Source: Loripinus fragilis
Taxonomy: Eukaryota; Mollusca; Bivalvia; Lucinida; Lucinidae
Reading direction: 5' to 3'
NCBI GenBank assembly: GCA_964019695.1
Contig: OZ026520.1
Coordinates: 25,124,130-25,188,129 of the forward strand
DNA: 64,000 nucleotides
The position numbers were made by a program, and so were the translations under genes. Positions 343 through 51,900 of the stretch are shown piece after piece. Position 1 is the first letter of the stretch. Every line of letters starts with the position of its first letter. Under the pieces are notes generated by a model. That model saw only the letters and a program-made list of their open reading frames with translations, was not told the origin of the DNA and ran no database searches.

Positions 343-800
343 TTAAAACATGAGCATTGGTGCAAGATAACTAAGATCCCCTCTAAATATTTTATTACAG
401 TCCAGTGAGATTTCGATGGTGGCAAGCAGGTGGCTATCCCTTTAACTTTGCTCTGAATGATGTATATATTGGTCCTCACTAAAACATGAGCACTGGTGTA
501 AGATAACTAAGATCCCACATATATATATATTATTTCAGTCCAGTGAGATTTCGATGGACGCAAGCAGGTGGCTATCCATTTTACTTTGCCCTGAATGATG
601 TATATATTGGTCCTCACTAAAACATGAGCACTGGTGTAACATAACGATTCTCTATATATTTTATTACAGTCCAGTGAGATTCCGATGGTGGCAAGCAGGT
701 GGCTATCCATTTAACTTTGCCCTGAATGATGTATATATTGGTCCTCACTAAAACATGAGCACTGGTGTAACATAACGATCCTCTATATATTTTATTACAG
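343..800 (+). repeat. three upstream tandem copies of the acceptor side of reelin exon a
   Basis: Exon-like starts at 401, 539 and 670 precede the real one at 801, with spacings of 138, 131 and 131 bp. Each unit has an intron end (AAAACATGAGCACTGGTGTA...TTATTACAG) and about 76 bases of exon encoding VRFRWWQAGGYP...VYIGP. Each partial copy then returns to intron sequence, and the frame reads GGT CCT CAC TAA, a stop. The intron part of the unit resembles the terminus of a transposon family seen elsewhere in the window (ends ACATGAGCACTCATGTAAG, for example at 50002-50020). Copies differ by several substitutions; the copy at 539 has TGGACG in place of TGGTGG. Confidence 0.9.
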
Positions 801-949
801 TCCAGTGAGATTCCGATGGTGGCAAGCAGGTGGCTATCCATTTAACTTTGCCCTGAATGATGTATATATTGGTCCTCCTTGTGATGATAACTGCCACAGA
901 TATGGGACCTGCAAGAAAGGGACATGTGTTTGTGATCAACATTCAGAAG
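801..949 (+). CDS. RELN: reelin exon a: end of sub-repeat 3A and most of EGF-like 3
   Basis: The acceptor is TTTATTACAG and the donor AAG|GTATTG. The exon begins with one base of a split codon and ends one base into the next. It reads PVRFRWWQAGG, then a shortened ALNDVYIG strand (the W-A-x-D-N motif of the family appears as F-A-L-N-D), then five EGF cysteines (PPCDDNC, RYGTC, KKGTCVCD). The sixth cysteine comes from the next exon. The first 76 bases of this exon, with about 55 bases of intron, are repeated three times just upstream. Only this copy continues into the EGF coding sequence, so it is the functional exon. Confidence 0.9.
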
Positions 950-48900: not shown

Positions 48901-51900
48901 ATCTGTGTCTCGATTTATCAATATTCATAAACTAAGATGTCCAATGATTCATAATTATTGTTATTATATATATTCGGTGTTTATAAAGGTGTTAAAAGTT
49001 TAGGTAAACAATAGAGAAATTACGCTGTGTATTCCAAAACAGCGGTAAAAGCCAATCGTGTAGATAAATGATATTGAGTGTTTCCCTCATTTACCTGTGT
49101 AAGATACACGACAGTGTTATTTGAGTTGAGTATTGGAATTTCATTGGAGTTTCTAGTCACTCTTATATAGGTCACGGGTATTGGGAAAAACTGTGGCTAT
49201 TTTCGATTGGGAATGGGGCCGAATTCGGCCCCTAGAGAAAGGCAGAAAATCCCCTGCATAGATATAATCAATAGCATGTATAGCTCTTAAGCATTAAGAT
49301 TTAAGTTTTGCTAATAATTTCCGCTTCAAAGACAACCCACAAGCAAGGATTCACGAACATAGGGTTTAATTCTTGTTTCAGAGGTGATGTAAGAAGGTTT
49401 ATTTGCATAAATTTATTTTGCACATAAGCCTTGAATCTTCAGTGCTGCTTAAACATGTAACATGTAGCATGTAACATACAGCATACAACATTTCCAAATA
49501 TTGTCAGTACCTTCAGAAACCTATTAAGTCTTAGTATAACATGTGAATGTAATATCAAACCTTACCTTTTACAAAAACCAAGAGAGATATCATAAAATGT
49601 GTTGTTTGCTGCATATAGGATTTGTGCTGTTACATTCAGAATCAATACAGCTTTGTGATGAAACATATATATCACATTAGAAGTATTTATCATATAACCT
49701 CACGTCTGGGAGTGATATAACACCTTGCAATAAAATTGATAAACCACTAGTGGTTTACAGATTTGGGGTAAAACAATATGATGCCCATAACAACGTTGCA
49801 TACATAACGACAAAATTAGAACGTTTTTACGTCAGAAATGAGATTTCAAAGTATTCTTATGTCATATGATAAATAGAATCTTACATTCATGCTCTTGTAT
49901 TATTTAATTTATCAAACTTGTTGCAAAAAAGAGATAAAATGCTTGTTAAGCCTCACATTTTATCTCTTTTCCCCAACTCGTTTAATATATTCAATAAAAC
50001 ATGAGGACTCATGTAAGATCCTCTTTGTATGTTATTTTATAATTATGAATTAGATTCTGAATGTCCTGTCTAGTAAACATATGTCAGTATGCTGCTACAT
50101 AACACCCAACAAAATCTAATACTTGTTTTGAATCTGGTGTTGTTAATTGGGCCTCGTCGCGAGAAAACCTGTCTTCGGGGGTTTGCAAACAACAAAGGCG
50201 CAGACCAGCCTGCGCATCTGCGCAGTCTGATCAGCGCCTTTGTTATTCGCTTTTTTGAAAATATCATATGTAAGCTTGCTACTGGCGAAATTTCAATTTT
50301 CAAGATTGTCTCTGTAGCTGAGGAGACTAGTTTGAATCTCGCTTTGACGGGAACCCCTAAGACAGGTTTTCTCGCGATGAGGCCCAATTTGGTATGACTG
50401 AATAGTTGATGATTTACTGTTACAGAGCTTCATTTAGATTATTCACTAGATATGGGATCTACATGGAAGCCACTATTTAAAGTATGTAAACCTTCTGGTA
50501 TGACTGAGTTGTTGATGTTTTACTGTTACAGAGCTTCATTTAGATTATTCGCTAGATATGGGATCTACATGGAAGCCACTATTTAAAGTATGTAAACCTT
50601 CTGGTATGACTGAGTTGTTAATGTTTTACTGTTACAGAGCTTCATTTAGATTATTCGCTAGATATGGGATCTACATGGAAGCCACTATTTAAAGTATGTA
50701 AACCTTCTGGTATGACTGAGTTGTTGATGTTTTACTGTTACAGAGCTTCATTTAGATTATTCGCTAGATATGGGATCTACATGGAAGCCACTATTTAAAG
50801 TATGTAAACCTTCTGGTATGACTGAGTTGTTGATGTTTTACTTTTACAGAGCTTCATTTAGATTATTCACTAGATATGGGATCTACATGGAAGCCACTAT
50901 TTAAAGTATGTAAACCTTCTGGTATGACTGAGTTGTTGATGTTTTACTGTTACAGAGCTTCATTTAGATTATTCGCTAGATATGGGATCTACATGGAAGC
51001 CACTATTAAAAGTATGTAAACCTTCTGGTATGACTGAGTTGTTGATGTTTTACTGTTACAGAGCTTCATTTAGATTATTCACTAGATATGGGATCTACAT
51101 GGAAGCCACTATTTAAAGTATGTAAACCTTCTGGTATGACTGAGTTGTTGATGTTTTACTGTTACAGAGCTTCATTTAGATTATTTGCTAGATATGGGAT
51201 CTACATGGAAGCCACTATTTAAAGTATGTAAACCTTCTGGTATGACTGAGTTGTTGATGTTTTACTGTTACAGAGCTTCATTTAGATTATTCGCTAGATA
51301 TGGGATCTACATGGAAGCCACGATTTAAGTATGTAAACCTTCTGGTATGACTGAGTTGTTGATGTTTTACTGTTACAGAGCTTCATTTAGATTATTCACT
51401 AGATATGGGATCTACATGGAAGCCACTATTTAAAGCATGTAAGCCTTCTGGTATGGATTGTAATAAACATTATAACCCTGACAGCAGCTACCTAGCATTT
51501 ACACACTTGACTTGGCGGAGAGCCAATATACCACTGCCATATTATACCAGGTAACACTGTGTTTATACTGATGGAGTTTTATTCTTGTTTCTTATATTAA
51601 CCTTTAATGCGCCAGTCGCAACAAAAGTAGTCTGCTTTTCTTGTCTGCTGGAATGTTTAAGTAGCCTCTATGGCAAACAGGGTAGACCCAGATCAGACTG
51701 CTCCTATAGGAGCAGTCTGTTCTGGGTCCACACTGTTTGCTTCTATACTTAATTTGTCGGTAATGTAAGGCAATTATTTGCAGCAGACTACTTCAGCAGA
51801 CAGAATTTTGAGATACTTTTTTTTCTTGGCGCTTTAAGAGTTAAACTTGGAAGGGCTAATTTGTATATTCCTTTTCATCCTGACGGAGTAAACCATACAT

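Follow-up and report, generated by a model that had tools for sequence, protein, structure and literature searches.

Recurrent short tandem duplications across exon edges in the reelin gene of the clam Loripinus fragilis

Tandem arrays have reportedly given rise to introns, as Zhuo et al. 2007 is said to describe. In Drosophila, partial tandem duplication of exons is a source of new intron positions (2010, PMC2891723), human genes have been modified by internal tandem repeats (PMC2812944), and tandem-duplicated exons can be mutually exclusive (PMC9741552), including in oyster AOX (PMC5589949). Among titles and abstract openings in the open-access literature, no report of junction arrays in molluscs or in reelin was recognised.

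In the reelin gene of the bivalve L. fragilis, nine exons are accompanied by direct tandem copies that contain exon bases, intron bases and the splice site. The clam arrays resemble the repeats of the human genes and the arrays attributed to Zhuo et al. 2007 in that splice-site-bearing tandem arrays change or could change gene structure. The human units average ~30 bp and reside in segmental-duplication paralogs (PMC2812944), whereas the clam units measure 86-220 bp and are located at exon edges of a one-locus gene. The Drosophila duplications likewise copy exon sequence in tandem with a splice motif, and stops and decay are discussed there for unspliced forms (PMC2891723). They fall within coding exons, at an AG/GY proto-splice site, and make a new intron, whereas in clam reelin an existing junction is spanned and the copies lie in the old intron. 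Mutually exclusive exons are also local tandem copies of exon sequence, but whole exons are kept as coding alternatives in those cases (PMC9741552, PMC5589949), whereas the clam copies are partial and free of coding constraint. Two candidate classes were rejected for this locus: intron gain by tandem duplication, the copies being located in existing introns and the exon body being present whole once, and mutually exclusive tandem exons, the copies being partial, with stops and near-neutral changes.

The window is a stretch of 64,000 nucleotides on the plus strand of contig C9 (C9:25124130-25188129) in an assembly of 1.99 Gb and 685 contigs. It was analysed together with 200 kb of flanks (264 kb in all), and positions outside it are given in window coordinates. 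Sequence similarity and exon order identify the window gene as reelin. An exon piece from the window matched the PDB reelin structure 3a7q (E 5.5e-17), and all 19 genome matches to Pfam Reelin_subrepeat-B fall in a single stretch of the window contig at 25.09-25.25 Mb. Against the reelins of Mactra, Mercenaria and Mya, the gene model shows 60-61% identity. Colinear alignment across ~187 kb of the window and flanks covers residues 177-3540 of Mercenaria reelin (P0002), residues 1-176 falling beyond the analysed DNA, so that both sequence match and order agree with the reelins of other animals; this alignment with bivalve reelins bears out the claim of the first-pass annotation that a single reelin gene is present. 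Merging the tblastn matches of seven molluscan reelins and removing six matches that are array copies gave 52 exons, of which 20 are in the window and 32 outside.

Array detection in the window by TRF and self-BLAST recovered three arrays, A1, A3 and A4, as earlier described, and each of them crosses an exon edge; all array copies and exons given here are on the plus strand. A1 (340..877) contains four copies with a period of 131-138 bp, each comprising the intron end, the acceptor and the first 75-77 bp of the exon. The true exon (801..949) starts in the last of these copies, at the innermost acceptor, 801. A3 (18274..18929) contains five donor copies of 134 bp, with one step of 120 bp, which join the exon end to ~10 bp of intron that include the donor; the donor of the true exon (18204..18398), at 18398, is the innermost of the five. 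A4 (50390..51455) contains ten copies of 106 bp, each with 36 bp of intron, the acceptor and 70 bp of exon, and its true exon (51379..51550) again starts at the innermost acceptor. At one place in A4, eight of the nine upstream copies read AAA followed by GTATGT, and the true exon has GCATGT at the same place. The combination of an acceptor and this GTATGT donor-like site in eight of the nine upstream copies (50426-51330) outlines possible 56-nt mini-exons.

The array at exon 13895, A2, had been described as three copies at a spacing of about 115 bp beside the exon. The copy number and spacing hold, but the array does not lie directly beside the exon, as a 2.34-kb insert stands between. Two upstream copies, with the acceptor and the start of exon 13895, occupy 11323..11493 at a spacing of 115 bp (individually 11323-11398 and 11390-11493). 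The third copy (13835..14083) consists of 60 bp of intron followed by the true exon, 13895-14083, and these 60 bp (13835-13894) are identical to 11390-11449 at 60 of 60 positions. The insert between them (11494..13834, without assigned strand, boundaries set by eye) has inverted ends of ~30 bp, 29 of 32 positions being identical, and is flanked by TA. The inverted ends and TA flanks are most simply explained by insertion into a pre-existing three-copy array, and A2 was thus probably a three-copy array before the insertion; the insert itself probably represents a DNA transposon. A comparison of 53 model exons, each with 60 bp on either side, against the 264 kb revealed no similarity between arrays, which supports the earlier view that the units are unrelated and the duplications separate events.

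Five further reelin exons with local junction copies were found outside the window by TRF, exon self-BLAST and inspection of sequence in the 200 kb flanks. On the acceptor side, ~34 copies of a 124-bp unit extend from -40089 to -36075, and one copy at -833, 92% identical, belongs to the exon at -644. On the donor side, ~13 copies of an 86-bp unit start from 99487, the donor end of exon 104400-104595 is copied once at 104918-105039 (96%), and the donor end of exon 128001-128180 is copied twice (95-96%), with other sequence inserted between. Junction copies were therefore observed at 9 of the 52 reelin exons (window, 4 of 20; flanks, 5 of 32), five on the acceptor side and four on the donor side, with 2 to ~34 copies each. 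The local tendency to duplicate short segments that had been proposed from the window is thus stronger than the window itself reveals, and the gene does hold many decoy splice sites, as had been stated. Decoy copies at 50850-50921 and within the 34-copy array were mistaken for exons by the exon model built here.

A census of direct repeats of at least 60 bp at a shift of 50-700 bp was performed across the reelin gene, in which a repeat was scored as exonic if the repeated stretch included at least 15 bp of exon. At an identity of at least 90%, seven of eight clusters are exonic versus 0.66 expected (P 1.9e-7, whole gene). At thresholds of at least 85% and at least 80%, 8 of 16 (1.35 expected, P 1.7e-5) and 8 of 24 (1.97 expected, P 4e-4) are exonic, respectively; the exon excess is weaker among older duplications than among those at least 90% alike. 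A2 is absent from the census because its copies are too far apart, and a 109-bp doubling at -21498 is intronic and was entered as non-exonic. The window had been chosen for its arrays, and the part of the gene outside it is therefore the fairer test. There, four of five clusters are exonic at 90% (P 2e-4) and 5 of 12 at 85% (P 2e-3), with P values computed from the average chance per cluster. The pattern in the reelin gene is real, recurrent and statistically strong, exons being roughly 10-fold over their share among younger duplications.

Other genes were examined for the same kind of copy. A query with the A4 exon recovered all ten copies and placed the A4 array at a single position in the genome, which served as a positive control. 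A HECT search gave 83 matches, of which 40 were taken, hand-picked and with a same-score multi-copy group left out, and 29 exons were tested. For nine of them the first 150 bp served as query, and a local copy was not found with these queries. Of the other twenty, all were found at their own place and one had local copies, in a search that scored 40 of 1200 candidates and in which copies are visible only beside scored places. That exon, in the HECT gene at C12:57128538 (L088), carries an acceptor-side array of ~4 copies of ~200-220 bp with 78-92% identity by stretch. By eye, no overlapping tandem pair was seen in the list of 83 HECT matches, a kind of search that misses short copies. Nineteen of these matches share one score and one model range (232-305) across many contigs, and represent a multi-copy, perhaps mobile, HECT-bearing sequence.

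A myosin family search (74 matches, 65 of 266 candidates scored) contained one pair, less than 1 kb apart, whose model ranges overlap (L110), in which the exon end and donor are copied over 145 bp at 90% identity, 654 bp downstream. In a laminin-G search (61 matches), tandem pairs of similar appearance occur at C5:19073615 and C155:162784, and the C5 pair is a whole-exon duplication, which is a different kind. The myosin and laminin-G pairs were spotted by eye, and family searches miss short copies. The C5 pair (L089, C5:19073560-19074010) is composed of two tandem laminin-G exons of 163 bp with 76% identity, ~26 bp apart; the spacer starts with GTGAG, ends with CAG and is open in frame, and may be a very short intron or part of a fused double exon. 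The proportion of exons with junction copies is not significantly higher in reelin (9 of 52) than in the controls, whether compared with 1 of 29 (one-sided Fisher P 0.065) or with the fully tested 1 of 20 (P 0.17). With junction copies in a HECT and a myosin gene as well, the phenomenon extends beyond reelin, and a peculiarity to this gene is not supported within a small control sample. A general mutational tendency of the genome seems a better description of the arrays than a switch specific to reelin.

Every tested decoy acceptor or donor read-through, in the arrays of all nine exons, meets a stop (31 decoys of the 34-copy array and nine donors of the 13-copy array were covered). The stops noted in the first-pass annotation thus exist, and chance predicts them too: a random 106-nt stretch of the window has an in-frame stop in 88% of cases, and the stops therefore carry little weight. 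Splice scores were obtained with a matrix trained on 10 exons only, with the exon-128001 array left out and the 34-copy array represented by 8 of 32 sites. In most copies the decoys score about the same as the true sites. Decayed decoys were observed in A2 (4.5 versus 10.6 for the true site), A3 (3.5 versus 7.9) and the 13-copy array (3.1 and 4.3 versus 8.3).

Substitutions were counted between copies and true exons in A1, A3, A4, the 34-copy and 13-copy arrays and one exon-128001 copy, with nine indel-bearing copies skipped. There are 29 synonymous, 55 nonsynonymous and 3 stop changes, as against neutral fractions of ~0.25, 0.70 and 0.05. The slight synonymous excess is strongest in A3, with six synonymous to two nonsynonymous changes. 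In the acceptor-side copies, including those of the HECT gene, the exon part is 8.7% and the intron part 8.8% diverged, a total that is dominated by the 34-copy array, and single arrays vary both ways. In the exon-128001 and myosin copies, the short intron pieces are more diverged than the exon parts, although these pieces may extend past the end of the unit. Among the acceptor-side copies, only the innermost continues into the remainder of the exon, a portion that is present in bivalve reelins. The near-neutral changes and the equal divergence of exon and intron parts set the copies apart from coding sequence, and the copies are most likely neutral in function, as judged from these changes; no sign of a retained function emerged from the analysis. 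Gene conversion anchored by the exon, which could make exon arrays look young, finds no overall support in the 8.7% versus 8.8% divergence; A1 alone (exon part 3.1%, intron part 10.4%) would fit it.

We favour, with a probability of about 0.6, recurrent short tandem duplication across exon edges that is tolerated, with mostly neutral decoys and use of the innermost site. On this view, the clam genome has repeatedly gained in-place duplicates of ~86-220 bp segments straddling an exon edge, with slippage or template switching as the probable mechanism, and expansion has in some cases reached as many as ~34 copies. The bases shared at the array edges of A4 (TGGTATG) and A3 (AAGGT) fit with slippage or template switching. 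Since the extra copies would end up on the intron side, the innermost splice site would be the one continuous with the main part of the exon. In exon definition, the nearest acceptor and donor are paired across the shortest exon. Because exon definition favours the innermost site, on either side, the duplications would be tolerated; the copies would stay in the intron, and most decoys would be carried along neutrally, at the cost of some noise in splicing. Against this explanation, the strong exon excess does not follow from a neutral process, the shared edges outside A4 and A3 are short (~2 bp in A1), A3 has a 6:2 synonymous excess, and the exon part of A1 is less diverged than its intron part.

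The exon excess (seven of eight clusters at 90%, 8 of 16 at 85%) and the junction copies in two unrelated genes would also agree with splice junctions or exon edges being a duplication hot spot through transcription- or splicing-linked DNA damage, the fate of the copies being neutral here too but the cause of duplication a directed one. This possibility is a tentative one, as the full count comes from one gene, the excess drops to 8 of 24 at 80% identity, and copies were found at 1 of 29 control exons, nine of which were covered over 150 bp only. Its wider form, in which junctions are a hot spot throughout the genome in the clam lineage, far above introns, and exons gather decoy fringes of which the innermost is always taken, is likewise doubtful. 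A regulatory use as a splicing brake was raised as a possibility in the first-pass annotation; decoys would then compete with true sites, give stops and lower reelin output by nonsense-mediated decay. Most decoys score like true sites under the 10-exon matrix and all tested decoys lead to stops, but random sequence would give such stops as well (0.88 for 106 nt), the copies change in a near-neutral manner with 8.7% versus 8.8% divergence, some decoys in A2, A3 and the 13-copy array show decay, and arrays of the same kind are present in other genes, which makes a brake unlikely.

It is highly improbable that the copies are exons in the making, either alternative mini-exons or new introns from a tandem array with splice sites: eight of nine upstream A4 copies do combine an acceptor with a weak donor (score 4.8), and a whole exon is doubled in tandem in a laminin-G gene, but the copies are overall free of coding constraint and the would-be introns between A4 copies measure only ~50 nt. 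Long near-identical arrays are hard to assemble, and false copies could come from collapsed or stuttered reads. Such an artefact is scarcely credible here, since point changes and indels distinguish the copies, two arrays are interrupted by inserts, the A4 array occupies a single genome place, and assembly error is not expected to prefer exons.

Were junction duplication common in the genome, every array would offer a natural experiment on how splicing selects one of up to ~34 near-identical sites and on whether the innermost is chosen, as in exon definition, and the process would point to mutation focused on exon edges. The bias towards exon edges is a testable question left by the reelin pattern, which is itself most likely not special to reelin. 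The arrays also carry a warning for annotation, as gene finders may call decoy copies exons.

Other repeats were observed in the analysed DNA. The segment 949-1000, just 3' of exon 801, is a dispersed repeat, to which 39 of 43 matches are limited (40 of 75 candidates scored). An inverted repeat at 32884-33626 has arms of 162 bp that are 92.6% alike and partly consist of the 15-bp tandem motif CGGACATTTCGGCCA. Arrays of a 140-150 bp unit with GGTCACAGTGACC are located at 59834-61468 and in a flank piece (L028, 1684-3655), on opposite strands and ~120 kb apart; by eye comparison, they represent a dispersed satellite.
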